Shown here: positions 38,307 to 61,894 of the stretch, piece by piece
Layout of the letters: every line of letters starts with the position of its first letter
How positions within the stretch are numbered: the first letter of the stretch is position 1
Assembly: GCF_900091415.1 (NCBI RefSeq)
Contig: NZ_FMHU01000002.1
Coordinates: 1,860,001-1,924,000 of the forward strand
Direction of reading: 5' to 3'
DNA length: 64,000 nt
DNA from: Micromonospora inyonensis
GTDB taxonomy: Bacteria > Actinomycetota > Actinomycetes > Mycobacteriales > Micromonosporaceae
Notes under the pieces: model-generated
What the model was told of the DNA's origin: nothing
Seen by the model: only the letters and a program-made list of their open reading frames with translations
Databases searched by the model: none
Made by a program: the position numbers and the translations under genes

Positions 38307-40010
38307 ATGGTCCGCTTCGTGCAGCCGGTGTCGGCACCCGCCGACCCGTACGTCGGTGACCCGCTGCTGCGGTCGTGGCTGGAGCGGCAGCTCGGCCCGG
38401 CCGGACACGCCGCCGCCAGGGGCCGCCTGACGGAGCTGGCCGCCGACGTGACCGGCCCGCTGCGCGCCGCGCACGCCGGCGCCGAGGCCCACCCGCCCAC
38501 CCTGGTCCGCTACGACCCGTGGGGCGCCCGGATCGACCGGGTCGACACGTCCGCCGGGTGGCGGACGCAGCGGGCCGCCGCCGCCCGGCACGCCGTGGTC
38601 GCCCTGCCCTACCTGGAGTCCGCGCGCGGTGAGTGGGGCGCGGCGGCCCGGATCGTGCAGCACGCCCTGCTGCACCTGTACGGGGCGGAGTCGGCGACGT
38701 TCTCCTGCCCGGTGGCGATGGCCGACGGCGCGGCGGCGCTGCTGTCCCGTCCCGAGGTCGACGCCGCCGTGCGCGACGCGTGGCTGCCCCGGCTGACCGC
38801 CACCGACCCGGACGTGGCGATCACCAGCGGCCAGTGGATGACCGAGTCGCAGGGCGGCTCGGACCTGGCCCGCTCCAGCACCATCGCCCGCCCTGCCCGT
38901 GAGGGGTCGTGGCGGCTGACCGGCGAGAAGTGGTTCTGCTCGGCGGTCGACTCGGCGATGGCGGTGGCCCTGGCCCGGCCGGAGGGAGCCGGCAGGGGCA
39001 GCCGGGTCCTCGCCCCGTTCCTGGTGCCCCGCTACGCCGCCGACTCCCCCCTCGCCGACGGCCGGGCCCCGGACGCGTGCGCACCGGGGGTGCGGATCCA
39101 CCGGCTCAAGGACAAGCTCGGCACCCGGGCGTTGCCCACCGCCGAGGTCGGCCTGCGGGACGCGTACGCGCTGCCGCTGGGCGACCCGACGCAGCCCGGC
39201 CTGGTCCGGGCGATGACCCTGGTGGTGGTCACCCGGCTGCACAACGCGGCCGCCGCCGTGTCCGGGATGCGCCGGGGTCTCGCGTACGCGCGGGCCTACG
39301 CCGACGCCCGGCAGGTCGCCGGGGGCCGGTTGGTCGACTCGCCGCTGCACCGGGCCACCCTCGGCACCCTCGGGGTGGACACCGCTGGCGCGTTCGTCCT
39401 GGCCGGACACGCGTTCGCGCTGTTCGGCCGGGTCGAGGTGGGTGCCGACCCGGACGCCGCCGCCGAACTGCGGGTCGTCGCGCCGCTGGCGAAGCTGGCC
39501 ACCGGGCGGCTCGCCGTCGCCTGCGCCAGCGAGTACGTGGAGGCGTTCGGCGGGGCCGGCTACGTGGAGGACACCGGGGTGCCGCGGCTGCTGCGCGACG
39601 CGCAGGTCCTGCCGATCTGGGAGGGCACCACGAACGTGCTCGCCCTGGACGTGCTGCGCGCGGTCACCCGGGAGGACGCGGCCCGGCCGTTGCTGCGCCG
39701 CCTCGCCGCCGCCGCCGACACCGCCCGCAGCCTGTCCCCCGCCCTGGCGCACACCCTGACCGCGGTCACCGAGGAACTGCGGGACACCTTCGCCGCGGTC
39801 ACCGCCGACCCGGGCGGGGTGGAGGCGGTCGCCGGGGCCCGCGCGGTGGCGTTGCGCGCCGCGTACGCCCTGACGGCGGCGCTGCTGGTCGAGCACGCCG
39901 CCTGGGGCGACGGGGCGGCCGAGGTGGCGGCCCGGCTGTGGGCGCGGCGCTGGCTGCGGCACGAGGAGATCGCCGTGGACGCCCACCAGAACCTGGACCT
40001 GCTCTGCTGA
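38307..40010 (+). CDS. Acyl-CoA dehydrogenase, AidB-like
   Basis: FAD-dependent flavoprotein, 567 residues, of the length and layout of AidB rather than the 380-residue fatty-acid enzymes. Landmarks: ITSGQWMTESQGGSDLARSS (FAD-binding MTE/S-x-GGSD), WRLTGEKWFCSAVDSAMAVA, RIHRLKDKLGTRALPTAEV, EYVEAFGGAGYVEDTG and LPIWEGTTNVLALDVLRAVT (cofactor contact). AidB proteins bind DNA and are induced by alkylation in enterobacteria; the actinobacterial role is not established. Monocistronic; a spacer of 115 bp separates it from the divergent membrane protein gene. Confidence 0.9.
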   Translation: MVRFVQPVSAPADPYVGDPLLRSWLERQLGPAGHAAARGRLTELAADVTGPLRAAHAGAEAHPPTLVRYDPWGARIDRVDTSAGWRTQRAAAARHAVVALPYLESARGEWGAAARIVQHALLHLYGAESATFSCPVAMADGAAALLSRPEVDAAVRDAWLPRLTATDPDVAITSGQWMTESQGGSDLARSSTIARPAREGSWRLTGEKWFCSAVDSAMAVALARPEGAGRGSRVLAPFLVPRYAADSPLADGRAPDACAPGVRIHRLKDKLGTRALPTAEVGLRDAYALPLGDPTQPGLVRAMTLVVVTRLHNAAAAVSGMRRGLAYARAYADARQVAGGRLVDSPLHRATLGTLGVDTAGAFVLAGHAFALFGRVEVGADPDAAAELRVVAPLAKLATGRLAVACASEYVEAFGGAGYVEDTGVPRLLRDAQVLPIWEGTTNVLALDVLRAVTREDAARPLLRRLAAAADTARSLSPALAHTLTAVTEELRDTFAAVTADPGGVEAVAGARAVALRAAYALTAALLVEHAAWGDGAAEVAARLWARRWLRHEEIAVDAHQNLDLLC

Positions 40011-40042
40011 CGCTGCGTCCCGGAGCACCGGGCCGGGAAGCC

Positions 40043-41044
40043 TCAGCCGGGTGACCGCCGGGACCGGGCCGCCCAGATCACGTACGCCGGGTCCCGGTCG
40101 AGGTTGTGCCGGTCCCGGTCGTAGCGTCGGGTGGTGCGCGGGTCGGCGTGGCCCATCGCGTCCTGCACGTCCTCGAGGGGGACGCCCTCGGCGCGGGCGG
40201 TGGTGGCGAAGGCGTGCCGCAGCGAGTGCGGGGACAGTCTCGCCCAGGCGGGGATTCCGGCCTCCCGGGCCAGCCGGCGGACCAGCCGGAACACCGAGTG
40301 CCGGTCGAGTCGGCCTCCGGTGGCGGTGACCAGCAGCGGCCCGGTCAACTCGTGCACGGCCACGCCCTGCCCGTCCGCCCGCGCCGCCAGGTACGCGTCG
40401 AGCGCGTACGCGGTGCCCGGGGTCAGTGCCCGCCGCCGCGACCGGCCGCCCTTGCCGACGAACCGCACGCTACGGTGACCGCGCTCCACGCCGAGGTCGT
40501 CGAGGTTCAGCGACACCAGTTCCCCGACCCGCAGCCCGAGGTCGGCCAGGAGCGCCACCACGGCCCGGTTCCGTACGGCAGTCGGACCGGTGGCGGCCTG
40601 CGCCGCCGCGAGCAGCGCGTCGACCTCCTGCGGGGTGAGTCCGACGGTGGCCGAGTGATCCCGGTCGACGCGCGGCCGGTCGGCACCGGAGACCGGGTTG
40701 GCGTCGATGGCGCGCAGTTTGACCAGGAAGTCGTACCAGCTGGACAGCGCGGAGAGTTTACGGGCGACGGTTGCCGGGGTCAGCGGGCGGCCCGTCCGCG
40801 CGGCGAGGGTCGACTCCAGGTCCCGGCCGTAGGCGTTGACGTGCAGGAAGTTGGCCCGCAACGGGTCGATGTCCTGGGCCGCGCACCAGGTCAGCCAGCC
40901 GGCGACGTCGCGCCGGTAGGCGTCGCGGGTGTGCGTGGACAGCCGTCGGTTGGCGAGCCACGCCTCGGTGAAGTCGACCGGGCCGTCGGGCAGGGCGGGC
41001 GTCGGCGCGGTGCCCGACAGCACCGGAAGGTCGGAATACGACAT
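40043..41044 (-). CDS. Tyrosine recombinase (XerC/D-like)
   Basis: 333 residues. The SAM-like N-terminal domain is about 25-125 (STHTRDAYRRDVAGWLTWCA); the catalytic domain has LLADLGLRVGELVSLNLDDL (Arg), GKGGRSRRRALTP, SPHSLRHAFATTARAEGVPL (HxxR) and AMGHADPRTTRRYDRDRHNL (His and Tyr). All catalytic residues are in place. It lies alone between aidB-like and alaX-like genes with no excisionase or attL/attR visible nearby, so it is more likely chromosomal or an orphan integrase. Convergent with the AidB-like gene, 32 bp apart. Confidence 0.88.
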   Translation of the reverse strand: MSYSDLPVLSGTAPTPALPDGPVDFTEAWLANRRLSTHTRDAYRRDVAGWLTWCAAQDIDPLRANFLHVNAYGRDLESTLAARTGRPLTPATVARKLSALSSWYDFLVKLRAIDANPVSGADRPRVDRDHSATVGLTPQEVDALLAAAQAATGPTAVRNRAVVALLADLGLRVGELVSLNLDDLGVERGHRSVRFVGKGGRSRRRALTPGTAYALDAYLAARADGQGVAVHELTGPLLVTATGGRLDRHSVFRLVRRLAREAGIPAWARLSPHSLRHAFATTARAEGVPLEDVQDAMGHADPRTTRRYDRDRHNLDRDPAYVIWAARSRRSPG

Positions 41045-44806: not shown

Positions 44807-46195
44807 TCAGCCTCTGTCGACCGTCCCGGACGCATCGATAGGTCGCCCGCTCGGACGCAGGGGCCGGTACCCGTCGGCGTCGAGCTGGGCGAGTTCGCCG
44901 TCGATGTCGACGGAGTGGGTGCCGTAGAAGTGCACGTTCTCGTGGTGGGTCGGCCAGATGTGCGCGAGGACCTCGTCGTCGACCTGGCGGCCGTCGCGGC
45001 GCAGTATACCGACGGCGAGGCCGTGGTACTCGGTCGACCAGCAGACGATGGCGTTGGTGGCCAGGGTGAGGCACCACATCTGCTCGGTCTGCTGCTCGTG
45101 GTGTCGGCGGCGCAGCGCTCCCTCGCCGGCGTACGCGAGGGAGCGGCGCAGGGCGTGCAGGTTCTCGCCCTTGTTGAGCTGCCGGGCGATGCGCCGCCGG
45201 TAGGTCTCGTCGGCCAGGTACCGGGCGGCGTAGACCGTGCGGCGCAGCGCCCCGTACTCCTTGATCCCGCTGGTCAGCGCGTTCTGCTGCCGTTTCGAGG
45301 AGCACAGCTTCCCGACGACCAGTGCTGCGGTCGCGTGTCCGCCCTGCACCGAGGCGGCGACGCGCAGCAGGTCGTCCCAGGTGCTCGTGATCAGGTCGGT
45401 GTTCAGGCGACGGGTCAGCAGGCCGCCCGCGCGCGGGTAGCGTGCGAGGAAGTCGGCGTTCGGGCCGGTCCGGTAGAGGGTGATCTTCCCGAGGTCGCGG
45501 ATGCGCGGCGAGAGTTGCTTGCCGACCAGGTCGAACAGGGCGAAGTTGGCCAGGGTGGCGCCGTGGGTGTCGGTAGCGTGCTCGAACACAGGTAGGTCGG
45601 TCTCGTTGCCCAGCAGTCCGTCGAGCACGTAGTGCGACTCCGGCGCGGTCGCCACGATGACCTTCGTGTCGAAGGTCGAGTGCTGGTCGGAGGCGTGGGT
45701 GTAGGTGGAGACGCCCTGTCCCCGGGCGAAGTACCGGGACAGGTGCCGGGCGGTGATGGACTTGCCCTTGACCGGGAACCGTTGCCCGTCCGAGGACGAC
45801 AGGGTGCCGGAGCCGAACGTCTGGGTAAGTGGGAGTCGGTGGTGGTAGTTGACCACTGCGGCGTTCGCGGCTTCCAAGGTCTCGGGGCGGAAGTACCACT
45901 CGGCGGTCCAGGCGAGCACGTCGTACGGCACGCCGCAGGACTCGGCCATCGCGGACAGGCCCATGTTCGTGGCTTCCGCGATGATCACGTACAGCAGGTT
46001 GCGCTTGAGCTCGGCCGGCCGGGCGACCTTCCCGCCGGCGTGCACCAGGTGATCGGTGAACCCGGTCCGGGCGTCGACCTCCACCAGCACCGAGGCGATC
46101 GGCACCCGCGGCAGCATCCCGGCCAGCTCCGCACGCAGCGCGTCGGCCTCGGCGGGCACGTCCTCGGCGGTCAGCGGCGGGATGATCAGGGAGCT
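44807..46195 (-). pseudogene. Tn3 family transposase, C-terminal part
   Basis: About 460 residues of TnpA are readable: SVLVEVDARTGFTDHLVHAG (first catalytic Asp), YVIIAEATNMGLSAMAESCG, DGQRFPVKGKSITARHLSRY, YTHASDQHSTFDTKVIVATA (second Asp region), HATDTHGATLANFALFDLVG, LNKGENLHALRRSLAYAGEG (catalytic Glu) and the final HENVHFYGTHSVDIDGELAQ. The N-terminal half, about 500 residues, is absent: the frame ends at 46195 against the IS3 element. No Tn3 inverted repeat is evident after the stop. It is a different subgroup from the fragment at 62854-63492. Confidence 0.85.
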
Positions 46196-47070
46196 TGACC
46201 CCTGATCCTGGACATGGGTTTATGCGGCCGGGGCCAGCGTATCTGGTGCTGGCCGGGGGTTCTTCTTCTCGTAGGTGATCGGGGATTGCTGTCCGAGCCG
46301 GGAGTGGCGTCGGACGGTGTTGTAGCGGTGTAGCCACCGGAACGTGGTCAGTCGTGCTTCGCGTTCGTCGGTGAAGGCGCGGCGACCTTGGAGGGTCTCG
46401 CGTTTGAGGGTGGCGTTGAACGACTCCGCGGCGGCGTTGTCGGCGGAGCTGCCGACCGCGCTCATCGACTGCCGCACCCCGGCCGTGGTGCAGGCCTCGG
46501 CGAAGGCCCGGGAGGTGTACTGGGCTCCGTGGTCCGTGTGCATGATCGCCCCTTTCAGGGTGCCCCGGGTGCGCTGCGCGGCGTGGAGGGGCATCGATGA
46601 CCAGGTCGGTGCGCATGTGATCGGCGATCGCCCAGCCCGCGAGGCGCCGGGAGTGCAGATCGATGACGGTGGCCAGGTAGAGGAAGCCACGGTCACCGAC
46701 TGGTAGGTAGGTGATGTCGCCGACGTAGCGCTGGTTCGGCGCGCAGGCGGTGAAGTCCCGGCCGATCAGGTCAGGGGCCTTCGTCGCGGCCGGGTCCGGC
46801 ATCGTCGTCCGCGTTCGTCGGCGCAGTCGTAGACCCTGCACGCCGAAGCGGCGCATCACCCGGGCGACCCGCTTCCGGTTGACCGCCAGGCCGGCATCCC
46901 GAAGTTCGGCGGTGATCCGTGGTGCTCCGTAGGTGCCGTCGTGAGCCGTGTGCACAGCCCGGATCCGACCCACGAGAGCCGCATCCGCGGCCTCCCGCGC
47001 GGCCCGCGTTTCTGCGGCCGCGCGCCGGACCATCACGATCCAAGGCTCAAGTGTCCAGGATCAGGGGGCA
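46196..47070 (-). mobile_element. Short IS3-family element (875 bp), both ends present, orfA missing
   Basis: Left end TGACCCCTGATCCTGGACA (46196-46214) and right end TGTCCAGGATCAGGGGGCA (47052-47070) are inverted repeats with one mismatch in 19. Inside is only an orfB-type integrase gene. IS3 elements are normally 1.2-1.5 kb with orfA plus orfB, so the element has lost orfA and the 5' part of orfB while keeping its tip. The two flanks belong to different transposons (Tn3 on one side, IS982 on the other) and show no matching target duplication. Confidence 0.75.
46220..47036 (-). pseudogene. IS3 family transposase OrfB, frameshifted
   Basis: DDE integrase. From the 5' side: VHTAHDGTYGAPRITAELRD (HTH_21 region), NQRYVGDITYLPVGDRGFLY (first Asp), VIDLHSRRLAGWAIADHMRT. 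An extra C in a run near 46592 shifts the frame; the rest reads KGAIMHTDHGAQYTSRAFAE (second Asp), SSADNAAAESFNATLKRETL (Glu) and HSRLGQQSPITYEKKNPRPA in another frame. About 60 N-terminal residues of OrfB are also missing. Inactive as sequenced. Confidence 0.8.
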
Positions 47071-47630
47071 ACTCCCCCTGCGGTATGTCCCGCCCCACCG
47101 TGCAACGCTCCGACCTGGCCGGCTGGGCCGGATACGGCTACTGCGCCTCACACTCCCGCTTCTTCTGGGGCCTGCGGCTCTACCTGGTGTGCACCCCGAC
47201 CGGCATGCCGATCCTGTGGGCCCTGGCCAACCCGAAGATCGGCGAACGCGAGGTCCTCGCCGCGATGCTGGACGTCGAGGCCGGCGTGGTCGCCGAGCAC
47301 GACGGGATCCTGCTGATCAGCGACAAGGGCTTCGCCTCCAAGCCGTTCGAGCGGCAGTTGGCCGAGCAGGGCATCGAACTGCTGCGCCCGTCGCGCAAGC
47401 GGGAGAAGGCCCGCTACGGCGAGCCGATGCTCAAGAAGGTCCGACAACTGATCGAGTCGGTCAACGACACCCTCAAGGGTCAGCTTGACCTGGAACAACA
47501 CGGCGGACGGACCTTCGCCGGTGTTGCTGTCCGTGTCGCCCAACGCCTGCTCGCCATGGCCGCCGCGATCTGGCACAACAACAAGACCGGCGCCCCCGTC
47601 ACCCGGTCACTGATCGCTTACGACCACTGA
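47071..47630 (+). pseudogene. IS982 family transposase, 5' truncated
   Basis: The open frame reads GWAGYGYCASHSRFFWGLRL, LVCTPTGMPILWALANPKIG, LLISDKGFASKPFERQLAEQ, KKVRQLIESVNDTLKGQLDL and RTFAGVAVRVAQRLLAMAAA. This is the second half of an IS982-type DDE transposase (ADKGY/SDKGF, then E-x-x-N-x-x-LK). Its N-terminal half and upstream end are missing where the IS3 element begins. The sequence just after the stop (CCGGGTTTCGGAAC) may be part of its terminal repeat. Confidence 0.75.
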
Positions 47631-48198: not shown

Positions 48199-48356
48199 AC
48201 ACGGAGGCCATCGGTTCCGAGCTGGTTGCGGACATGAGTGGCGGTGCGCGGGGCTGTTTCGCGTGGGAACGAGATGGCCGACGGCCGAGGCGTTGGTGCG
48301 CTGCTGGGTGATTGGCATTGAGTGCCCCTGGTGGGGGTGGGGAGGGGGCGTTGGCG

Positions 48357-51300
48357 GTGGCTGAGGCTGCTGTTCCTTCCGTGGGTCTCAGTGAGTCGTC
48401 GAAGCAGGCCCTGGAGGCGTTCACCGGGATGCGGTTGCACCGGTCGAATCTGCCGGTGTTGGCGTACGACCTGAACGCGTTGGAGGTGCTGGCGGAGCGG
48501 GTGCGGACCCTGTTGGTTCCGGAGCTGATCCAGGCGATCAAGGCGGTTCGGGCGGCGGGCGAGGGTGAGGTCTTCGACCGGTTCGTGGCGCAGACCGCTC
48601 CGTTCGTGGAACTGCTGGACCGGGTCGCCGATCTGAAGGTGAACGCGGCCCAGGCGATGCGGGACTTCCTGAACCAGATGGAGCTGACGGATCGTCAGGC
48701 GCTGGTCATGTTCATCTTCATGATGACGGAGCTGGCGGTCGCGTTCGCGATGGCGTTCTTCCTGCCGGTGGAGGCGGCGGCGCACATCGTGAAGACCCGG
48801 ACGATCATCCAGACGATCCTGCGGTCGTCGATGGTGCGGGCGGCGGCGAGCAGCACGGCGATCCAGATGTTGTTCATGCCGGGGTCGTCGTTGTTGGCGC
48901 AGATCAGCATGCTGGCTGATGGTCTGATGCCGGGGATCGACTGGGCGCAGGTCGGCAAGCAGGCGTTGTACGGGTTGGCGGTGGCGGGTGTCACCACGGC
49001 GGCCGCGCCGGCGTTGGCCCGTTTCGCCGGTGCCGTCGGTGGTGGTCTGGCGCACCTCGGGGTGTCGGGTTCCACGCGTGACCTGTTGACCAGTCTGTTG
49101 ATGGTGCCGGTGTCGGAAGTCGGCATGGAGGTGGTCGGCGACGCCGCCGCCAGCTACATCGTCGACGGGACCTACGACCCCAGTGGTCTCGCTCTGGCCG
49201 CGGCGTCCGGGGCGGCGTCGGCGGGAAATGAGCTGGCCGGGACCGCGGCCGGGGCCGCTGCGCGTCGTGTGGCTGTCGGTTTGGGGTTCAATCCGACCCG
49301 GCCCCGGTGGAACATGCCCGGTGGCACCGGTTTCACCGCCGACGGTAAGCCGGTCGCGCCGGTACCGCCGATACCCGCGCCGGTCACTGCGGACCCGTCC
49401 CTGTACCAGCCGGAGGTCGGGGATCCCGCGGGTGCGGGGTCGGGGGGGCAGGCCCCGGTGTCCGTCCCGCTGGTGCCGGCACCGGTCCTGTCCGCGCCGG
49501 CGTGGTCGGCACCGGACCTGCCGGTGCCGTCGTGGTCCGTGCCGAGCTTCTCGGTGCCGACGGTGCCGGTGGTGCCCGTGCCGGAGTGGGTAGCGGTCGC
49601 TGGTGCGTTGGTGGTGGAGCAGTGGCAGCGGTTCCAGCGGGAACTGGTGGACCACTATGGTGGACTGCTGGCCGGGATGGGGCAGGCGCGGCAGTTCCTG
49701 GCCGCGCTTCCCGTGTCGGTTGAGCGGGTGTTCGCCGGGTGGGTCGACGCCCGGCGGGGTGATCGGGCTGTTGCGGCTTTCCTGTCCGCGGTCGGTCTGC
49801 CCGCTGCCGCGTTGACCGAGGGGTATCTGACGGGTGTCCGGCAGCGGGCGGTGGCCCGGGTGGTCGAGGCGTTGGCGTTCTCCGGTGGGCGGATCCCGGC
49901 CGAGGTGCGGGCGCGGCAGGTGATCGCCGGGCTGCCGGCGGAGTTCGACCGGCAGGCGCTGCGCTCGCTCGCGCACCTGGCCGTTCAACACCACATCGAC
50001 CAGTACCTCGCCGCCGGCCTACCCACAGGCACCGGCACGCCGACAGGCCCCGGCACGCCGACAGACGCTGGCGTGTCGGGGGGCGCTGGGGCGGTGGTGC
50101 CGTCCGCTGGCGTGCTCAGGGCGGTCGAGGGCGGCGTGTGGAGCCAGGTGGACCGTGGGGTCGATGTGATCCTCGGTGCCCCTGCCGTGCTGCCGGGTGT
50201 GGTGGCCGGTCCCGACGCCGGGCAGGTCAGTGCCGTGGGGAGGGTGGTCCGGCAGGCGGTTACCGACCTGTCCGCCCGTTTCTCGGCCGTGACGGTCCCC
50301 GGCGTCACCGGAGCGGCCGCCGGTGTGGCTACGGTCGATGTCGAGGAAGGCGGGCGTGTCGGCGGGCCGGCGGTGCCGGTGATGTCTGAGCGGCACACCG
50401 CGGCGGCGGCTGGTCTGGCGCAGGCCCAGTTCACCGCGTTGGCCCGCCGGTACGGTGTCGATCCGGCCGGTCATGCGGCGTTGGTCACCTCGTTCCAGCG
50501 GGAGTGGGTGGACGGGTACCACAAGGTGCTCGTGTCGGCCGGCGGGAGCGTGACGCCCGGGACGGCGGATGTGGTCGGGGCCCTCGGTACGGTGCCGGGT
50601 GGTGCCGGCTCCCATGGCGGTGGCATGTCGATCGTCGACGTCGTCAGCGTCGGTGATACGGCGTCGGTCAGTGACGTGTCTATGGCAAGCGGTGGAGTGT
50701 TCAGCCCCGATCTCGGCTCCCGGGACACGGATTCGACCGGTTTCAGGGACTCGGGTTCGATCAGTGATGTGTCGTTGCTGGACGAGTCGATCAGTGCCGG
50801 CTCTGGCGGTCTCGGCGAGCGGGCCGTCGCGGCGACTGGGCCGGCCGTGGAACGAATCCACGATCTCGCCAGCGGCGGCTACGGCCGTGCCAGCGACGCT
50901 CAGCTGCGCCGGCTCGCTGCGGACCTCGGTATCCAGGCGGCGTCGCCGGACGGGGTCCTGCCCCAACTGTTCGAGGTGTCCAGGGATGTCGTCATGGCGG
51001 ACACGGTCAGCGGTGTGTACTTCGCCGACCCGGTGGTGGCGGATCTGGACGCGGCGGCGGATCGCACGGCGGCGCAGGCGCTGCCGTCGGTGGAGGGATG
51101 GTTCACCATCGCCGGGCACCGGAACCTGGCCGAGCGGCTGGCCGACGATCCGGTGCGTCAGGCCTTGTTCCTCCGGATGATCACCGCCTCGCCCGCCTGG
51201 CAACACGCCGTCGCGCAGGCGCGACAGCGCGGCGGCGGCATACCTGACATCTTGCTGGTCTGGTGTGACGCGGCATGGCGGGGACCGGGGCAGGCCACCT

Positions 51301-54300
51301 CCTTCGGTGAATGGTTGCGCACCCGGCTGCGTGCCCGGCGGCTGATGTCGTCCACGCACGAGGTGGACCAGATGCCCGGCGAGTTGCGGCCACACGGGGA
51401 CGAGCCGGTGCGGTCGGTGTTGTTCTCGGATGGTTCGGTGGAGTTGTTCGGGCCGGATCTGGTGGAGGCGGTACGGACCGCGGACATCGTCGAGAACGGG
51501 CAGGAACCCGGCGTGCGCTGGCCGGATCAGGAGGACTTCGCCGCCGCTGGCGGTCGGCACCGGTGGGCCGGCAACACCTCAGACGGGCAGTCGACCGATC
51601 CAGCGGAAGGCGGCGACCCGTCTGGTCCTGGCCCGGTGTCCGCCGCCCAGTGGGTGTGGGGCCCGTCGCGGGATCCAGGGGCGCAGTTGCCGGTGCCGGG
51701 CCCTGCCCTCGGACCGGACCGCCCGCAGGGTGAGGACCTGTCCTGGCTGGACCACGGGGCTACGGTGCCGATGTCCGGGCTGGTACCTGCCCCGCCGGCG
51801 GGCACGGGTCTGCCAGGGCTGTCAGGGCTGCCCGGGCCGTTGGACGACCCGGACGCCCCCACCGCATCGTCCTGGCCGGCAGGGCCGGCCGCGTCGTCCT
51901 GGCCGGCGGGGTGGGCGGAACCGGGGTGGCCGATACCCGGCATGGGCGTGACCGACGGGCACGGTGCGGCGATGTCCACCGACTTCGACCAGCCGAGCAT
52001 CGACAATCAGGCCAGCGACGGCGGGAACCTCGGCGACTGGGCCGGCGACGGCGGGAACCTCGGCGACTGGGCCACCTACCAGGGGCCGGACATGGACTGG
52101 CAGCCATACCTCGCACCCTCCCCGGCGGTGGCCCGCACCGACGCCGGCACTGTCCACGCCGGCGACACCCTCCATCACCCGGCCGACGAGCCACCCACCA
52201 CGCCCGCCTCGCCGCAACCCGACCAACCCCAACCCCAACCCGCTGCGGGCAGCCGGCGGGTGCGCGACCCGGGCGAGGCCCGGGCGCTGTTCGACCAGCA
52301 CGCCGACCACATCGCCACCACAACACGGCAGCGGGAACAGCTGCGGCAGTTGTGGAACGCCCTGATCGACCGGATGGACGACAACGGGATCATCACCGCC
52401 AGCGAGCCAGACCTCGCCGAGGCGACATCCGCACAGCAGCAGACGGTGCATGCCCGGATCGGGGCATTGCTGCGCGGCAGTGCTCTGCTGCATCTGGTGC
52501 AGGAAGGTCACGGTGGCGGGGCGGCGCGGTACGGGGTGAGCGATCCGGGTCAGCCCCGGCAAGCACCACTGCCGGCCCCTCCCGAAGGCAGCCAGTGGCT
52601 GCGCGACCCGGATGAGGCCCGGGCGCTGTTCGACCAGCACGCCGACCACATCGCCACCACAACACGGCAGCGGGAACAGCTGCGGCAGTTGTGGAACGCC
52701 CTGATCGACCGTATGGACGACAACGGGATCATCACCGCCAGCGAGCCAGACCTCGCCGAGGCGACATCCACACCGAAGCCGACGGTGCATCACCGGATCG
52801 GGGCATTGCGCGGCAGTGCTCTGCTGCAGCGGGTCCAGGAAAGTCACGGTCGCGGGGCGGCACGGTACGGGGTGAGCGATCCGGGTCAGCCCCAGCAAGC
52901 ACCACTGCCGGCCCCTCCCGAAGGCAGCCAGTGGCTGCGCGACCCGGATGAGGCCCGGGCGCTGTTCGACCAGCACGCCGACCACATCGCCACCACAACA
53001 CGGCAGCGGGAACAGCTGCGGCAGTTGTGGAACGCCCTGATCGACCGGATGGACGACAACGGGACCATCACCGCCAGCGAGTCAGACCTCGCCAAGGCGA
53101 CATCCACACCGCAGCAGACGGTGCATAACCGGATCGGGGCATTGCGCGGCAGTGCTCTGCTGCAGCTGGTCCAGGAAGGTCACGGTGGCGGGGCGGCGCG
53201 GTACGGGGTGAGCGATCCGGGTCAGCCCCAGCAAGCACCGTTACCGGCCCTTCCCGCAGACAGCCGATGGGTGCGCGACCCGGATAGGGCCCGGACGCTG
53301 TTCGACCAGCACGCCGACCACATCGCCACCACAACGCAGCAGCGGGAACAGCTGCGGCAGTTGTGGAACGCCCTGATCGACCATATGGACGACAACGGGA
53401 TCATCACCGCCAGCGAGCCAGCCCTCGCCGAGGCGACATCCACACCGAAGCAGACGGTGCATCACCGGATCGGGGCATTGCGCGGCAGTGCTCTGCTGCA
53501 GCTGGTCCGGGAAGGTCGCGGTGGCGGGGCGGCGCGGTACGGGGTGAGCGATCCGGGTCAGCCCCGGCAAGCACCGTTGCCGGGCCCTGCCCTCGGACCG
53601 GACCGCCCGCAGGGTGAGGACCTGTCCTGGCTGGACCACGGGGGTACGTTGCCGATGTCCGGGCCTGCACCTGCCCCGCCGGCGGGCACGGGTCTGCCAG
53701 GGCTGCCCGGGCCGTTGGACGACCCGGACGCCCCCACCGCGTCGTCCTGGCCGGCGGGGTGGGCGGAACCGGGGTGGCCGGTACCCGGCATGGGCGTGAC
53801 CGACGGGCACGGTGCGGCGATGTCCACCGACTTCGACCAGCCGGGCATCGACGATCAGGCCAGCGACGGCGGGAACCTCGGCGACTGGGCCGGCGAGGGC
53901 GGGAACCTCGGCGACTGGGCCACCTACCAGGAGCCGGACATGGACTGGCAGCCATACCTCGCGCCCTCCCCGGCGGTGGCCCGCACCGACGCCGGCACTG
54001 TTCACGCCGGCGACACCCTCCATCACCCGGCCGACGAGCCACCCACCACGCCCGCCTCGCCGCACCCCGACCAACCCCAACCCCAACCCCAACCCCAACC
54101 AGCTGCGGGCAGCCGGCGGGTGCGCGACCCGGGCGAGGCCCGGGCGCTGTTCGACCAGCACGCCGACCACATCGCCACCACAACACGGCAGCGGGAACAG
54201 CTGCGGCAGTTGTGGAACGCCCTGATCGACCGGATGGACGACAACGGGATCATCACCGCCAGCGAGTCAGCCCTCGCCGAGGCGACATCCGCGCAGCAGT

Positions 54301-57300
54301 CGACGGTGCATGACCGGATCGGGGCATTGCTGCGCGGCAGTGCTCTGCTGCAGCTGGTCCAGGAAGGCCACGGTGGCGGGGCGGCGCGGTACCGGGTGAG
54401 CGATCCGGGTCAGCCCCAGCAAGCACCGTTACCGGCCCTTCCCGCGGGCAGCCGATGGGTGCGCGACCCGGAGGGGGCCCGGACGCTGTTCGACCAGCAC
54501 GCCGACCACATCGCCACCACAACACGGCAGCGGGAACAGCTGCGGCAGTTGTGGAACACCCTGATCGACCGGATGGACGACGACGGGATCATCACCGCCA
54601 GCGTGTCAGCCCTCGCCGAGGCGACATCCACACCGCAGCAGACGGTGCATCACCGGATCGGGGCATTGCTGCGCGGCAGTGCTCTGCTGCAGCTGGTCCA
54701 GGAAAGTCACGGTGGCGGGGCGGCGCGGTACGGGGTGAGCGATCCGGGTCAGCCCCGGCAAGCGCCGTTGCCGGGCCCTGCCCTCGGACCGGACCACCCG
54801 CAGGGTGAGGACCTGTCCTGGCTGGACCACTGGGATACGCTGCCGATGTCCGGGCCGGTACCTGCCCCGCCGGCGGGCACGGGTCTGCCCGGGCTGTCAG
54901 GGCTGCCCGGGCTGTCAGGGCTGCCCGGGCCGTTGGACGACCCGTACGCCCCCACGGCATCGTCCTGGCCGACGGGGCCGGCCGCGTCGTCCTGGCCGGC
55001 GGGGTGGGCGGAACCAGCGGGGCCGGTTCCCGGCACTGGTGTGACCGACGGGCACCGTGCTGCGATGTCCACCGACTTCGACCAGCCGAGCACCGACAAT
55101 CAGGCCAGCGACGGCGGGAACCTCGGCGACTGGGCCGGCGAGGGCGGGAACCTCGGCGACTGGGCCACCTACCAGGGGCCGGACATGGACTGGCAGCCAT
55201 ACCTCGCACCCTCCCCGGCGGTGGCCCGCACCGACGCCGGCACTGTTCACGCCGGCGACACCCTCCATCACCCGGCCGACGAGCCACCCACCACCCTCGC
55301 CCCACTCCACCCCGACCAACCCCAACCCACTGCGGGCAGCCGGTGGGTGCGCGACCCGGATGAGGGCCGGGCGCTGTTCGACCAGCACGCCGACCACATC
55401 GCCACCACAACACGGCAGCGGGAACAGCTGCGGCAGTTGTGGAACGCCCTGATCGACCGGATGGACGACAACGGGATCATCACCGCCAGCGAGTCAGACC
55501 TCGCCAAGGCGACAACCACACCGCCGCGGACGGTGCATGACCGGATCGGGGCATTGCGCGGCAGTGCTCTGCTGCAGCTGGTCCAGGAAGGCCACGGTCG
55601 CGGGGCGGCGCGGTACCGGGTGAGCGATCCGGGTCAGCCCCAGCAAGCACCGTTACCGGCCCTTCCCGAAGGCAGCCGATGGGTGCGCGACCCGGATAGG
55701 GCCCGGACGCTGTTCGACCAGCACGCCGACCACATCGCCACCACAACACGGCAGCGGGAACAGCTGCGGCAGTTGTGGAACGCCCTGATCGACCGGATGG
55801 ACGACGACGGGACCATCACCGCCAGCGAGTCAGACCTCGCCAAGGCGACAACCACACCGCCGCGGACGGTGCATGACCGGATCGGGGCATTGCGCGGCAG
55901 TGCTCTGCTGCGGCTGGTCCAGGAAGGCCACGGTCGCGGGGCGGCGCGGTACCGGGTGAGCGATCCGGGTCAGCCCCAGCAAGCACCGTTACCGGCCCTT
56001 CCCGCAGGCAGCCGATGGGTGCGCGACCCGGATAGGGCCCGGACGCTGTTCGACCAGCACGCCGACCACATCGCCACCACAACACGGCAGCGGGAACAGC
56101 TGCGGCAGTTGTGGAACGCCCTGATCGACCATATGGACGACAACGGGATCATCACCGCCAGCGAGTCAGCCCTCGCCGAGGCGACAACCACACGGCAGTC
56201 GACGGTGCATAGCCGGATCGGGGCATTGCGCGGCAGTGGTCTGCTGCAGCTGGTCCGGGAAAGTCACGCTGGCGGGGCGGCGCGGTACCGGGTGAGCGAT
56301 CCGGGTCAGCCCCAGCAAGCACCGTTACCGGCCCTTCCCGCAGGCAGCCGATGGGTGCGCGACCCGGATGAGGCCCGGACGCTGTTCGACCAGCACGCCG
56401 ACCACATCGCCACCACAACACGGCAGCGGGAACAGCTGCGGCAGTTGTGGAACGCCCTGATCGACCATATGGACGACAACGGGATCATCACCGCCAGCGA
56501 GCCAGCCCTCGCCGAGGCGACATCCACACCGAAGCAGACGGTGCATCACCGGATCGGGGCATTGCGCGGCAGTGCTCTGCTGCAGCTGGTCCGGGAAGGC
56601 CACGGTGGCGGGGCGGCGCGGTACGGGGTGAGCGATCCGGGTCAGCCCCGGCAAGCACCGCTGCCGGGCCCTGCCCTCGGACCGGACCACCCGCAGGGTG
56701 AGGACCTGTCCTGGCTGGACCACGGGGCTACGGTGCCGATGTCCGGGCCTGCACCTGCCCCGCCGGCGGGCACGGGCCTGCCAGGGCTGCCCGGGCCGCT
56801 GGACGACCCGGACGCCCCCACCGCATCGGCCTGGCCGACGGGGCCGGCCGCGCCGTCCTGGCCGGCGGGGTGGGCGGAACCAGCGGGGCCGGTTCCCGGC
56901 ACTGGTGTGACCGACGGGCACGGTGCTGCGATGTCCACCGACTTCGGCCAGCCGAGCACCGACAATCAGGCCGGCGACGGCAGCGGGAACCCCGGCGACT
57001 GGGCCACCTACCCGGTGGACCCAGCCGATCTGCTCGGTGTGGACCCAGCCGACCTGCTCGTCCTGCTTGATCCGCTCCATCCGGCGTGGGTCGGCCCGCC
57101 CACGGCCGTGGACATGGAACCCGACCCCGGGCCGCAACCGATGGATCCGCCCCGGCCGCAGGCCCCACCCGGCCCGACATCGTGGTCGCAGCCCAGCGGC
57201 GACCAGCCCAGCCAGTTCCCAGGGACTCAGTCGTTCCCGCCCGGACCGGGCGTGCAGGATCCGGCACCTCAGTTGCCGATGCCCGGGCCCGCACCTGCCT

Positions 57301-60095
57301 CGTCGGCGGGCACGGGTCTGCCTGGGCTGCCCGGGCCGTTGGACGACCCGGACGCCCCCACAGCGTCGTCCTGGCCGGCGGGGCCGGCCGCGTCGTCCTG
57401 GCCGGCGGGGTGGGCGGAACCAGCGGGGCCGGTTCCCGGCACTGGTGTGACCGACGGGCACGGTGCTGCGATGTCCACCGACTTCGGCCAGCCGAGCACC
57501 GACAATCAGGCCGGCGACGGCAGCGGGAACCCCGGCGACTGGGCCACCTACCCGGTGGACCCAGCCGATCTGCTCGGTGTGGACCCAGCCGACCTGCTCG
57601 GTGTGGACCCAGCCGACCTGCTCGTCCTGCTTGATCCGCTCCATCCGGCGTGGGTCGGCCCGCCCACGGCCGTGGACATGGAACCCGACCCCGGGCCGCA
57701 ACCGATGGATCCGCCCCGGCCGCAGGCCCCACCCGGCCCGACATCGTGGTCGCAGCCCAGCGGCGACCAGCCCAGCCAGTTCCCAGGGACTCAGTCGTTC
57801 CCGCCCGGACCGGGCATGCAGGATCCGGCACCTCAGTCGCCGATGCCCGGGCCCGCACCTGCCCCGTCGGCGGGCACGGGTCTGCCTGGGCTGCCCGGGC
57901 CGCCAGACGACCCGGACGCCCCCACAGCGTCGTCCTGGCCGGCGGGGCCGGCCGCGTCGTCCTGGCCGGCGGGGTGGGCGGAACCAGCGGGGCCGGTTCC
58001 CGGCACTGGTGTGACCGACGGGCACGGTGCTGCGATGTCCACCGACTTCGACCAGCCGAGCACCGACAATCAGGCCGGCGACGGCAGCGGGAACCTCGGC
58101 GACTGGGCCACCTACCAGGAGCCGGACATGGACTGGCAGCCATCCCTCGCACCCTCCCCGGCGGTGACCCGCACCGACGCCGGCACTCTCCACACCGGCG
58201 ACACCCTCCATCACCCGGCCGACGAGCCACCCACCACCCCCGCCCCACTCCACCCCGACCAACCCCAACCCACTGCGGGCAGCCGATGGGTGCGCGACCC
58301 GGATAGGGCCCGGGCGCTGTTCGACCAGCACGCCAGCCACATCGCCACCACAACGCAGCAGCGGGAACAGCTGCGGCAGTTGTGGAACGCCCTGATCGAC
58401 CGGATGGACGACGACGGGATCATCACCGCCAGCGAGTCAGCCCTCGCCGAGGCGACATTCGCACCGCGGCCGACGGTGCATGACCGGATCGGGGCATTGC
58501 GCGGCAGTGCTCTGCTGCAGCTGGTCCAGGAAGGCCACGCTGGCGGGGCGGCGCGGTACCGGGTGAGCGATCCGGGTCAGCCCCAGCAAGCACCGTTACC
58601 GGCCCTTCCCGAAGGCAGCCGATGGGTGCGCGACCCGGATAGGGCCCGGACGCTGTTCGACCAGCACGCCAGCCACATCGCCACCACAACACGGCAGCCG
58701 GAACAGCTGCGGCAGTTGTGGAACACCCTGATCGACCATATGGACGACGACGGGATCATCACCGCCAGCGTGTCAGCCCTCGCCGAGGCGACATTCACAC
58801 CGCGGCCGACGGTGCATCGCCGGATCGGGGCATTGCGCGGCAGTGCTCTGCTGCAGCTGGTCCAGGAAGGCCACGCTGGCGGGGCGGCGCGGTACCGGGT
58901 GAGCGATCCGGGTCAGCCCCAGCAAGCACCGTTACCGGCCCTTCCCGAAGGCAGCCGATGGGTGCGCGACCCGGATAGGGCCCGGACGCTGTTCGACCAG
59001 CACGCCAGCCACATCGCCACCACAACACGGCAGCGGGAACCGCTGCGGCAGTTGTGGAACGCCCTGATCGACCGTATGAACGACGACGGGATCATCACCG
59101 CCAGCGAGTCAGACCTCGCCAAGGCGACAACCACACCGCGGCCGACGATGCATCGCCGGATCGGGGCATTGCGCGGCAGTGGTCTGCTGCGGCTGGTCCG
59201 GGAAGGTCACGGTGGCGGGGCGGCGCGGTACGGGGTGAGCGATCCGGGTCAGCCCCAGCAAGCACCGTTGCCGGGCCCTGCCCTCGGACCGGACCACCCG
59301 CAGGGTGAGGACCTGTCCTGGCTGGACCACGGGGCTACGGTGCCGATGTCCGGGCCGGCACCTGCCCCGCCGGCGGGCACGGGCCTGCCCGGGCTACCCG
59401 GGCCGCTGGACGACCCGGACGCCCCCACCGCGTCGTCCTGGCAGGCGGGGTGGACGGAACCGGGGTGGCCGGATCCCGACAGTGATGTGACCACCCACGG
59501 TGCTGCGATGTCCACCGACCCCGGCCAGCCGCGCAATCAGGCCGACGAGAGCAGCGGGAACCTCGACGACTGGGCCACCCACCAGGGGCCGGACATGGAC
59601 TGGCAACCATCCCCAGCGGTGACCCGCACCGACGCCGGCACTCTCCACGCCGGCGACACCCCCCATCACCCGGCCGACGAGCCACCCACCACCGCCCCAC
59701 TGCACCCCGACCAACCCCAACCCCAACCCACTGCGGACAGCCAGTGGGTGCGCGACCCGGATGATGCCCGGACGCTGTTCGACCAGCACGCCGGCCACAA
59801 CGCCCCCGCAACGCGGCAGCGGGATCAGCTGCGGAAGTTGTGGAACGCCCTGATCGACCATATGAACGGCGACGGGCTCATCACCGTCACCGAGTCAGAC
59901 CTCGCCGCGGCGACATCCACACCGCAGCGGACGGTGCATGACCGGATTGGGGTATTGCGCGACCGTGGTCTGCTGCAGCTGGTCCAGGAAGCAAACGGTG
60001 GCGGGGCGGCGCGGTACAGGGTGAGCGATCCGGGGTCAGCCCCGGCAAGCATCGGTGCCGGGCCCTGCCCCCGGACCGGACCGCCCGCAGGGTAG
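48357..60095 (+). CDS. Giant protein: membrane/helical N-terminus, His/Cys module, 14 winged-helix repeats
   Basis: About 3,912 residues from a GTG preceded by GGGAGGGGG; a TTG at 48312 would add 15. Residues about 12-320 are helical and include a strong membrane segment (VMFIFMMTELAVAFAMAFFL, near 115-140), like N-terminal WXG100/CpnT-like regions of actinobacterial toxins. Pro-rich linkers follow. At about 900-1060, WFTIAGHRN (His921) and ILLVWCDAAWRG (Cys970) suggest a 'lonely Cys'/caspase-like module. From 52251 on there are 14 copies of a 112-residue unit (LFDQHADHIATTTRQREQLR, then a HTH and GGAARYGVSD wing) in groups of 4, 2, 4, 3 and 1, separated by Pro/Gly-rich linkers. No known single-protein model fits; function unknown. 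Confidence 0.85.
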   Translation: MAEAAVPSVGLSESSKQALEAFTGMRLHRSNLPVLAYDLNALEVLAERVRTLLVPELIQAIKAVRAAGEGEVFDRFVAQTAPFVELLDRVADLKVNAAQAMRDFLNQMELTDRQALVMFIFMMTELAVAFAMAFFLPVEAAAHIVKTRTIIQTILRSSMVRAAASSTAIQMLFMPGSSLLAQISMLADGLMPGIDWAQVGKQALYGLAVAGVTTAAAPALARFAGAVGGGLAHLGVSGSTRDLLTSLLMVPVSEVGMEVVGDAAASYIVDGTYDPSGLALAAASGAASAGNELAGTAAGAAARRVAVGLGFNPTRPRWNMPGGTGFTADGKPVAPVPPIPAPVTADPSLYQPEVGDPAGAGSGGQAPVSVPLVPAPVLSAPAWSAPDLPVPSWSVPSFSVPTVPVVPVPEWVAVAGALVVEQWQRFQRELVDHYGGLLAGMGQARQFLAALPVSVERVFAGWVDARRGDRAVAAFLSAVGLPAAALTEGYLTGVRQRAVARVVEALAFSGGRIPAEVRARQVIAGLPAEFDRQALRSLAHLAVQHHIDQYLAAGLPTGTGTPTGPGTPTDAGVSGGAGAVVPSAGVLRAVEGGVWSQVDRGVDVILGAPAVLPGVVAGPDAGQVSAVGRVVRQAVTDLSARFSAVTVPGVTGAAAGVATVDVEEGGRVGGPAVPVMSERHTAAAAGLAQAQFTALARRYGVDPAGHAALVTSFQREWVDGYHKVLVSAGGSVTPGTADVVGALGTVPGGAGSHGGGMSIVDVVSVGDTASVSDVSMASGGVFSPDLGSRDTDSTGFRDSGSISDVSLLDESISAGSGGLGERAVAATGPAVERIHDLASGGYGRASDAQLRRLAADLGIQAASPDGVLPQLFEVSRDVVMADTVSGVYFADPVVADLDAAADRTAAQALPSVEGWFTIAGHRNLAERLADDPVRQALFLRMITASPAWQHAVAQARQRGGGIPDILLVWCDAAWRGPGQATSFGEWLRTRLRARRLMSSTHEVDQMPGELRPHGDEPVRSVLFSDGSVELFGPDLVEAVRTADIVENGQEPGVRWPDQEDFAAAGGRHRWAGNTSDGQSTDPAEGGDPSGPGPVSAAQWVWGPSRDPGAQLPVPGPALGPDRPQGEDLSWLDHGATVPMSGLVPAPPAGTGLPGLSGLPGPLDDPDAPTASSWPAGPAASSWPAGWAEPGWPIPGMGVTDGHGAAMSTDFDQPSIDNQASDGGNLGDWAGDGGNLGDWATYQGPDMDWQPYLAPSPAVARTDAGTVHAGDTLHHPADEPPTTPASPQPDQPQPQPAAGSRRVRDPGEARALFDQHADHIATTTRQREQLRQLWNALIDRMDDNGIITASEPDLAEATSAQQQTVHARIGALLRGSALLHLVQEGHGGGAARYGVSDPGQPRQAPLPAPPEGSQWLRDPDEARALFDQHADHIATTTRQREQLRQLWNALIDRMDDNGIITASEPDLAEATSTPKPTVHHRIGALRGSALLQRVQESHGRGAARYGVSDPGQPQQAPLPAPPEGSQWLRDPDEARALFDQHADHIATTTRQREQLRQLWNALIDRMDDNGTITASESDLAKATSTPQQTVHNRIGALRGSALLQLVQEGHGGGAARYGVSDPGQPQQAPLPALPADSRWVRDPDRARTLFDQHADHIATTTQQREQLRQLWNALIDHMDDNGIITASEPALAEATSTPKQTVHHRIGALRGSALLQLVREGRGGGAARYGVSDPGQPRQAPLPGPALGPDRPQGEDLSWLDHGGTLPMSGPAPAPPAGTGLPGLPGPLDDPDAPTASSWPAGWAEPGWPVPGMGVTDGHGAAMSTDFDQPGIDDQASDGGNLGDWAGEGGNLGDWATYQEPDMDWQPYLAPSPAVARTDAGTVHAGDTLHHPADEPPTTPASPHPDQPQPQPQPQPAAGSRRVRDPGEARALFDQHADHIATTTRQREQLRQLWNALIDRMDDNGIITASESALAEATSAQQSTVHDRIGALLRGSALLQLVQEGHGGGAARYRVSDPGQPQQAPLPALPAGSRWVRDPEGARTLFDQHADHIATTTRQREQLRQLWNTLIDRMDDDGIITASVSALAEATSTPQQTVHHRIGALLRGSALLQLVQESHGGGAARYGVSDPGQPRQAPLPGPALGPDHPQGEDLSWLDHWDTLPMSGPVPAPPAGTGLPGLSGLPGLSGLPGPLDDPYAPTASSWPTGPAASSWPAGWAEPAGPVPGTGVTDGHRAAMSTDFDQPSTDNQASDGGNLGDWAGEGGNLGDWATYQGPDMDWQPYLAPSPAVARTDAGTVHAGDTLHHPADEPPTTLAPLHPDQPQPTAGSRWVRDPDEGRALFDQHADHIATTTRQREQLRQLWNALIDRMDDNGIITASESDLAKATTTPPRTVHDRIGALRGSALLQLVQEGHGRGAARYRVSDPGQPQQAPLPALPEGSRWVRDPDRARTLFDQHADHIATTTRQREQLRQLWNALIDRMDDDGTITASESDLAKATTTPPRTVHDRIGALRGSALLRLVQEGHGRGAARYRVSDPGQPQQAPLPALPAGSRWVRDPDRARTLFDQHADHIATTTRQREQLRQLWNALIDHMDDNGIITASESALAEATTTRQSTVHSRIGALRGSGLLQLVRESHAGGAARYRVSDPGQPQQAPLPALPAGSRWVRDPDEARTLFDQHADHIATTTRQREQLRQLWNALIDHMDDNGIITASEPALAEATSTPKQTVHHRIGALRGSALLQLVREGHGGGAARYGVSDPGQPRQAPLPGPALGPDHPQGEDLSWLDHGATVPMSGPAPAPPAGTGLPGLPGPLDDPDAPTASAWPTGPAAPSWPAGWAEPAGPVPGTGVTDGHGAAMSTDFGQPSTDNQAGDGSGNPGDWATYPVDPADLLGVDPADLLVLLDPLHPAWVGPPTAVDMEPDPGPQPMDPPRPQAPPGPTSWSQPSGDQPSQFPGTQSFPPGPGVQDPAPQLPMPGPAPASSAGTGLPGLPGPLDDPDAPTASSWPAGPAASSWPAGWAEPAGPVPGTGVTDGHGAAMSTDFGQPSTDNQAGDGSGNPGDWATYPVDPADLLGVDPADLLGVDPADLLVLLDPLHPAWVGPPTAVDMEPDPGPQPMDPPRPQAPPGPTSWSQPSGDQPSQFPGTQSFPPGPGMQDPAPQSPMPGPAPAPSAGTGLPGLPGPPDDPDAPTASSWPAGPAASSWPAGWAEPAGPVPGTGVTDGHGAAMSTDFDQPSTDNQAGDGSGNLGDWATYQEPDMDWQPSLAPSPAVTRTDAGTLHTGDTLHHPADEPPTTPAPLHPDQPQPTAGSRWVRDPDRARALFDQHASHIATTTQQREQLRQLWNALIDRMDDDGIITASESALAEATFAPRPTVHDRIGALRGSALLQLVQEGHAGGAARYRVSDPGQPQQAPLPALPEGSRWVRDPDRARTLFDQHASHIATTTRQPEQLRQLWNTLIDHMDDDGIITASVSALAEATFTPRPTVHRRIGALRGSALLQLVQEGHAGGAARYRVSDPGQPQQAPLPALPEGSRWVRDPDRARTLFDQHASHIATTTRQREPLRQLWNALIDRMNDDGIITASESDLAKATTTPRPTMHRRIGALRGSGLLRLVREGHGGGAARYGVSDPGQPQQAPLPGPALGPDHPQGEDLSWLDHGATVPMSGPAPAPPAGTGLPGLPGPLDDPDAPTASSWQAGWTEPGWPDPDSDVTTHGAAMSTDPGQPRNQADESSGNLDDWATHQGPDMDWQPSPAVTRTDAGTLHAGDTPHHPADEPPTTAPLHPDQPQPQPTADSQWVRDPDDARTLFDQHAGHNAPATRQRDQLRKLWNALIDHMNGDGLITVTESDLAAATSTPQRTVHDRIGVLRDRGLLQLVQEANGGGAARYRVSDPGSAPASIGAGPCPRTGPPAG
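52251..60030 (+). repeat. Array of 14 winged-helix-coding repeats (336-339 bp each) with repeated linkers
   Basis: Unit starts at 52251, 52590, 52926, 53262, 54111, 54450, 55338, 55674, 56010, 56346, 58281, 58617, 58953 and 59739. Spacing within groups is 336 bp, or 339 where an extra Leu codon is present. The scaffold (REQLRQLWNALID, IGALRGSALLQLV, GGAARY) is nearly invariant, while the residues in LAEATSTPKPTVHHRI differ from copy to copy. Groups are separated by linkers of 510-1,600 bp, each containing EDLSWLDHG and SSWPAGWAEP. Confidence 0.9.
57000..57690 (+). repeat. Recent in-frame tandem duplication in linker region of giant gene
   Basis: A segment of about 540 bp (coding PVDPADLLGVDPADLLVLLD to GQPSTDNQAGDGSGNPGDWA) occurs twice in succession, starting near 57010 and 57550. 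Copy 2 has one extra GVDPADLL unit. The two are almost identical at the DNA level, including silent positions, pointing to recent duplication by recombination or slippage. Confidence 0.75.
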
Positions 60096-61294: not shown

Positions 61295-61894
61295 GTGACG
61301 GCGATCTCGATCGGGTACGCCCGCTGCTCCACCGACAAGCAAGACCTCGAAGCGAACCGGCAGATCCTGCTCGACCTCGGGGTGCTCGCCGACCGGATCC
61401 ACCTCGACCGGGCGTACTCCGGCACCAGCCGGGCCCGGCCCGGCCTGGACCAGGCCCTCGCCGCGGTCCGGACCGGCGACACCCTCGTTGTACCGAAACT
61501 CGACCGGCTCGCCCGTTCCGTGCCCGACGCCCGGCAGATCGGTGACTCCCTCGCCGCCCGCAGCATCCGGCTGCAGCTCGGCGCGATGATCTACGACCCA
61601 ACGGATCCGATGGGCAAGATGTTCTTCAACATCCTGGCCACGTTCGCTGAGTTCGAGGTGGACCTGCTGCGGATGCGTACCCGCGAGGGCATGGCGATCG
61701 CCCGGGCCAAGGGCAAACTCAAAGGCCGGGCGCCGAAGCTGTCACCGACCCGGCAGGCGCACCTGCTTAAGCTGCACGCCGCCAAGGAACACACCATCGC
61801 CGAACTCGCCGAGCTGTTCGAGGTGTCCCGCCCGACGGTGTACCGAGTCCTCGAACGCGCCAGCGTCACGACAGCCACAGCGGATGCGGCATGA
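61295..61894 (+). CDS. tnpR: Serine resolvase (TnpR, Tn3 family)
   Basis: 199 residues from GTG. SIGYARCSTDKQDLEANRQI (catalytic Ser at ARCST), DTLVVPKLDRLARSVPDARQ (Arg pair), MFFNILATFAEFEVDLLRMR (dimer helix) and a C-terminal HTH EHTIAELAELFEVSRPTVYR. Complete Tn3-type resolvase. Its stop overlaps the ATG of the GAF gene (ATGA), so that gene is cotranslated as transposon cargo. Confidence 0.93.
   Translation: MTAISIGYARCSTDKQDLEANRQILLDLGVLADRIHLDRAYSGTSRARPGLDQALAAVRTGDTLVVPKLDRLARSVPDARQIGDSLAARSIRLQLGAMIYDPTDPMGKMFFNILATFAEFEVDLLRMRTREGMAIARAKGKLKGRAPKLSPTRQAHLLKLHAAKEHTIAELAELFEVSRPTVYRVLERASVTTATADAA

Follow-up and report, generated by a model that had tools for sequence, protein, structure and literature searches.

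The 64,000-nucleotide stretch of Micromonospora inyonensis DNA analysed here (contig NZ_FMHU01000002.1, positions 1,860,001 to 1,924,000; hereafter the window) belongs to a 6.92 Mb genome in 4 contigs and contains a giant open reading frame (ORF) encoding an array of near-identical modules with a predicted winged helix-turn-helix (HTH) fold. A preliminary description of this DNA had reported 14 tandem units. All 14 are present between positions 52263 and 60035, each of 95-96 amino acids (aa), but they do not form one run: they fall into five clusters (of 4, 2, 4, 3 and 1 units), with a start-to-start spacing of 112-113 aa within clusters and Pro-rich, partly repeated spacers of 167-550 aa between them (Table 1). 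Judging from the sequence, a GTG at 48357 is likely to be the real start, and several paralogs present an ATG at this place, behind a G-rich stretch. Part of the middle region (50757-51806), scanned alone against Pfam, returned no match. By eye, spacer-like coding continues in another frame from about position 60055, and the 3' end of the ORF hence looks frameshifted or truncated.

Table 1. Parts of the giant array gene, in window positions
Feature	Position	Strand	Remarks
Giant ORF	48312..60095	+	3927 aa (first-start convention)
Upstream region and first codons	47826..48437	+	368-612 bases shared with nine type A paralogs at 96-99% identity
N-terminal domain with hydrophobic stretches	48357..49310	+	
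Linkers and middle region	49311..52262	+	
Array cluster 1, four units	52263..53558	+	52263-52550, 52602-52886, 52938-53222, 53274-53558
Pro-rich spacer	53559..54122	+	
Array cluster 2, two units	54123..54749	+	54123-54410, 54462-54749
Pro-rich spacer	54750..55349	+	
Array cluster 3, four units	55350..56642	+	55350-55634, 55686-55970, 56022-56306, 56358-56642
Long Pro-rich spacer, internal repeats	56643..58292	+	
Array cluster 4, three units	58293..59249	+	58293-58577, 58629-58913, 58965-59249
Pro-rich spacer	59250..59750	+	
Unit 14	59751..60035	+	69% identity to reference unit, lowest among window units
Short C-terminal tail	60036..60095	+	

The assignment of these units, termed type A in what follows, to the HTH fold draws on profile matches and on a predicted structure, both of which support what the preliminary description had proposed. 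The unit matched Pfam HTH families over the cut-off, and winged-HTH chains headed the VIA list obtained for it. In the AlphaFold2 model, helices 48-55 and 59-71 are predicted to form an HTH with a tight turn and a recognition helix; residues 83-95, where the wing would be expected, were modelled without strands and with a predicted local distance difference test score (pLDDT) below 50. A search of PDB sequences with the unit returned a single match (E 0.34), and Foldseek gave no match at E 0.001 for the type A module or for the type B module described below. Cysteine is absent from all 14 window units, and hence so are the ligands of C2H2 zinc fingers. The likeness to winged-HTH regulators such as Lrp/AsnC, TtgV and MarR lies in the predicted fold of a single unit: these regulators have one DNA-binding domain each, whereas the window protein would have 14 per chain.

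The modules belong to a large family. A profile built from the 14 window units yielded 161 matches in 14 genome stretches and the window; after leaving out seven partial matches, these comprise 154 full units at 13 loci, of which 138 are distinct as DNA. The N-terminal domain of the window protein is shared by 23 copies in the same genome (35 of 40 candidates scored), ten of which have no full type A units. In most copies the frame stays open over 2,400 to more than 10,000 aa, and some paralogs, here and in a second genome (G124), are interrupted by stops or shifts of frame. The two broken loci L018 and L019 (C2 3.108-3.124 Mb and 3.168-3.188 Mb) hold near-identical versions of an array gene in inverted orientation, separated by about 60 kb. 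The search for homologues across 160 genomes of the genus detected type A arrays in only two, that of M. inyonensis and G124, which is probably Micromonospora olivasterospora; four further genomes gave one weak match each, to part of the type A unit only. Absence in the genus and family searches is not proof, because only part of the candidates of each genome was scored (32 in the genus search for type A, 6 in the family search for the N-terminal domain and 14 in the family search for type B). The N-terminal domain had 42 matches in G124, including two that may derive from a single gene, and the twenty G124 stretches retrieved first contained 111 matches to the type A unit (109 full, 105 distinct). 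One of its array genes (L092) lies on a 126 kb replicon (C2) that is perhaps a plasmid and would offer a route for spread. A two-unit query against plasmid and phage collections, in which close genomes may be left out, found no match, and a pattern search of a genome contig collection with the same limitation gave 127 matches, none of them to a relative.

Base contacts in HTH proteins are commonly made by positions 1, 2 and 6 of the recognition helix, as exemplified by Y17, Q18 and R22 of LacI and R180, E181 and R185 of CRP. With the predicted recognition helix of type A beginning at column 59, these positions correspond to columns 59, 60 and 64. Among the 14 window units, columns 64, 60 and 59 ranked first, second and third of 95 by entropy, with 1 in 200,000 random column triples scoring as high as 59/60/64, and in the 138 distinct units they ranked 1, 2 and 4 of 95, with 3 in 200,000 triples as high. 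Considering all frames of the form x, x+1, x+5, the recognition-helix frame came first of 88 in the 138 distinct units and in 19 of the 22 type A arrays with at least five units, and ranked 2 (of 88), 2 (of 87) and 3 (of 88) in the remaining three; neither triple nor frame counts are formal P values, because shared descent and recombination make the units non-independent. The 154 units present 42 distinct residue triplets at columns 59/60/64. The preliminary description had located the variation in the recognition helix, which agrees with the top-ranked columns and requires one amendment: entropy above 1 bit was also observed elsewhere, for instance at columns 4, 5, 15, 22, 48, 73, 78, 82, 83 and 85, so that the HTH is not the only variable part. 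The focus on the recognition helix is strong, though not exclusive, and the variable positions, when mapped on the predicted structure, appear centred on helix positions 1, 2 and 6 rather than evenly spread.

The per-site contrast of amino-acid and silent change, computed among the 154 full units as nonsynonymous and synonymous polymorphism (pN/pS), revealed an excess of amino-acid change at the same columns. It amounted to 0.375/0.010 at columns 59/60/64, where the third codon base is constant and pS rests on few silent sites (the codons are GC-rich), which weakens the ratio and not the comparison with other columns. The corresponding values were 0.182/0.026 for columns 56-67, 0.080/0.067 outside columns 56-67 and 0.017/0.056 at conserved columns, and pN at the three focal columns is about six times the unit-wide pS (0.061). 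The scaffold therefore looks to be under purifying selection, and the putative reading positions under diversifying selection. This contrast bears on a non-functional expansion, in which HTHs that have lost their targets drift at exposed helix positions and the resulting variants are dispersed by recombination. The broken paralogs (L018/L019 and several in G124), the apparent truncation of the window ORF and the transposase genes that adjoin it would fit such a decay, but drift should bring pN/pS near 1 and not to about 36, and it accounts for neither the constraint on the conserved columns nor the long frames kept open by most copies. We deem this explanation unlikely.

Six sister paralogs carry arrays of another HTH-like repeat, type B, which shows no detectable similarity to type A. 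Variation in type B is greatest at two columns, which correspond to helix positions 2 and 6, and the focal variation patterns of both types recur in G124. The family-wide search identified type B units in 3 of 354 genomes, namely M. inyonensis, G124 and, in diverged form, G243, which belongs to another genus. In the latter (L113), diverged type B-like units occur in two giant ORFs of opposite strand that are arranged head to head, N-terminus to N-terminus. That two dissimilar HTH-like arrays share the same focus of variation favours DNA reading over the antigenically varying surface that the preliminary description had offered as an alternative. A surface protein changing to escape phages, predators or antibodies would fit the repeats, their mosaicism, the excess of amino-acid change and a possible export; it does not predict that variation should settle on the usual DNA-facing positions of two HTH-like modules, and we consider it quite improbable.

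The family is also linked to type VII secretion (ESX). In eight of the nine genomes with a strong match to the N-terminal domain, a copy of this domain lies 9.4-12.6 kb downstream of an EccC gene; in the ninth (G048) the gene is on an 18 kb contig, whose end is too near to tell. This count covers the nine strong-match genomes, and 11 family genomes with weak matches stand outside it. A rough estimate places the chance of such linkage below 1% per single-copy genome, and at 6 and 11% for two multi-copy genomes. In M. inyonensis the ESX-linked domain (C1:235336-236298), part of a 19,120-aa frame, shares the strand of EccC and lies 11.6 kb downstream of it, in a locus where EccC, EccD and EccB scored over NCBIfam cut-offs and three WXG100-like ORFs scored below cut-off. 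The same gene order is found in G006, G112, G071, G313, G011, G126 and G124. The 19,120-aa frame spans approximately 178,900-236,300 of the same contig (G000:C1, L068-L071), and homologues at the same ESX place reach 14,824 aa in G112 and 11,802 aa in G006. Pfam scans of C-terminal portions of the 19,120-aa ORF and of the giant in G006 returned no match. The N-terminus of the window protein matched neither the WXG100 nor the WXG100_2 model, and relatives in G016 and G020 (28-29% identity) matched WXG100_2 (PF25547) over cut-off; one Lentzea protein, which carries units resembling type B, is likewise WXG100-like by name and by score. We take the ESX-linked copy to be the putative founder of the family.

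These features recall the WXG100-like and polymorphic-toxin giants of type VII secretion (PMC3482391), with which the family shares its giant length, an ESX-operon copy, papain-fold paralogs and WXG100_2 in distant relatives. The difference is that hypervariable-helix HTH arrays are not described in the accessible parts of that work, and that the window protein, whose 3' end looks broken, matched no toxin model in Pfam. The likeness nonetheless gives weight to a reading in which the modules are protein-recognition surfaces, bound for example by a matching immunity or chaperone protein in the manner of polymorphic toxins, with the HTH as a mere scaffold. Beyond the ESX linkage, a papain-fold domain (PF15644) is present in paralog L021 and, from precomputed matches, in P0004 (by length and contig the L072 gene), P0007 and P0009, and Zhang et al. 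2012 (PMC3482391) list a Tox-HTH toxin domain. Conversely, both dissimilar modules vary most at the same helix positions, and the residues found there are mostly capable of base contacts: in the two modules such residues, in a set of our own choice, make up 76% and 90% of those at focal columns, compared with 52% and 66% at other variable columns. Moreover, none of the nine window ORFs flanking the array gene that were scanned is immunity-like. We regard a protein-recognition role as rather unlikely.

The codons of the focal columns raise the question of how the variation is generated. Codon 64 is GAC, GCC, CGC, CAC, AAC, CTC or AGC, that is, NNC in 154 of 154 units, and the third base of codons 59 and 60 is always G. 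The pattern at codon 64 is what an AAC template would yield under adenine-directed mutagenesis, and variation at the first and second codon bases is also the point of likeness to diversity-generating retroelements, which could in principle produce it whatever its function. Here, by contrast, type B columns 80 and 84 keep a third-position A in 65 of 76 units, although mutagenesis directed at adenine would alter it, and the units are distributed over 13 loci instead of one. A search for reverse transcriptases (RVT_1) gave 10 matches; motif 4 was readable in five of the eight loci fetched and reads PQG..SPLL in each, which we take to be the group II intron type, so that no matching reverse transcriptase type appeared among the five. 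The readable motifs, together with the conserved third-position A, make mutagenesis by a retroelement or a similar targeted system very improbable.

Reshuffling among units, on the other hand, is well represented. All four combinations were observed at 68-86% of biallelic site pairs in type A, in every distance bin, and at 74-94% in type B, with the caveat that recurrent mutation could add to these counts, and mean r2 was at most 0.15 in every distance bin for both types. Such near-free assortment is compatible with frequent unequal exchange between units or with gene conversion. TAL effectors are bacterial arrays of near-identical modules with few variable, DNA-reading residues and are likewise linked to a secretion system; they are type III effectors composed of 34-aa (33-35 aa) repeats, each reading one base through a repeat-variable di-residue. 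No TALE model matched the window protein in Pfam or NCBIfam scans. The TALE-like logic of one module per site put forward in the preliminary description is only partly apt: here the module is a predicted winged-HTH unit of 95-96 aa with a period of 112-113 and an ESX linkage, and its evolution resembles that of PRDM9. As reported in PMC2779102, the near-identical zinc fingers of metazoan PRDM9 combine positive selection at positions -1, 3 and 6 with concerted evolution; near-identical tandem modules, concerted evolution and selection at specificity positions, here putative, are the features in common. The arrays differ from PRDM9 in consisting of bacterial HTH modules without zinc ligands, within a giant ESX-linked family with 154 full modules at 13 loci.

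Taken together, we consider it probable that these are giant proteins linked to type VII secretion and carrying modular DNA-reading arrays under diversifying selection, with a PRDM9-like mode of evolution. A modular sequence-specific DNA binder, as the preliminary description envisaged, is compatible with the predicted HTH, the variation at usual base-contact positions, the codon analysis and the second array. Under this interpretation, the copy at the end of the ESX operon, one per genome, would be the founder of a family whose dispersed copies carry the HTH arrays. The recognition helix of each module would face the DNA major groove, its residues 1, 2 and 6 being kept variable by diversifying selection on a conserved scaffold, and recombination would reshuffle the variants among some 150 modules. 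The array could then read and bind DNA sequence at several sites, with a specificity that changes rapidly and a logic comparable to that of TALEs. The least certain step is its purpose: most likely it would serve in conflict, to recognise or retain particular DNA that is foreign, extracellular or a competitor's, and other candidates are DNA transfer and an effect inside rival cells following ESX export. Three observations weigh against this interpretation: the array genes are dispersed outside the ESX operon, and the window copy is not in one; the order of modules within arrays does not depart from shuffles; and the Lentzea arrays, which would provide a third replicate, are too diverged and show no clear focus of variation. 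More tentatively, and at somewhat less than an even chance, some Micromonospora may possess a genome-wide set of changeable DNA-reading proteins that arose from a type VII secretion giant protein and comprise more than 200 HTH modules of two dissimilar kinds, arranged in arrays and diversified at their recognition residues by selection and shuffling; the set would be a bacterial counterpart of PRDM9 or of TALE repertoires, with possible targets in extracellular or foreign DNA or, once exported, inside rivals.

Of the components, the winged-HTH domain and the ESX giant protein have been described before; the array with selected recognition residues, as far as checked, has not. The literature searched, which left most subscription papers and preprints out of reach, shows no hypervariable HTH arrays, in keeping with the suggestion that such arrays are undescribed. 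If the modules do bind DNA in the way their variation predicts, they would constitute a natural library of well over 100 near-identical HTH domains that differ most at specificity residues, near-ideal material from which to derive an HTH recognition code, as well as a new modular DNA-binding architecture. Type VII secretion would then be tied to sequence-specific DNA recognition, and PRDM9-like evolution would extend to bacteria.

Other members of the family carry further repeats. Micromonospora olivasterospora P0003 (L122) combines diverged type A, type B and LuxR-type (GerE) modules in one chain; in frames above 4,000 aa, LuxR-type modules were found only in two G124 ORFs among three genomes searched. 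The paralogs at L072:546-19760 (-) and L021 contain WD40-type repeats, and a third repeat type was apparent by eye at L066:2059-11283 (+). The last 400 aa of the latter match the Lentzea protein P0008 at two places (36% identity, E 2e-56 and 5e-57) and may represent a true C-terminal effector domain. Pfam scans of part of L066 and of part of L063 gave no match, and PADLOC models of anti-phage defence proteins, at E 0.01, matched neither L066 nor the window protein as far as its array. Elsewhere in the window, a tRNA-Arg call and a tyrosine recombinase gene are about 1.4 kb apart (38518-41044); the tRNA call may be false, sitting within a 567-aa ORF on the opposite strand (38307-40010). The array gene itself is bordered on its 5' side (44807-47630) by a Tn3-family transposase and pieces of rve-type and DDE transposases, and on its 3' side (61295-61894) by a serine resolvase gene.
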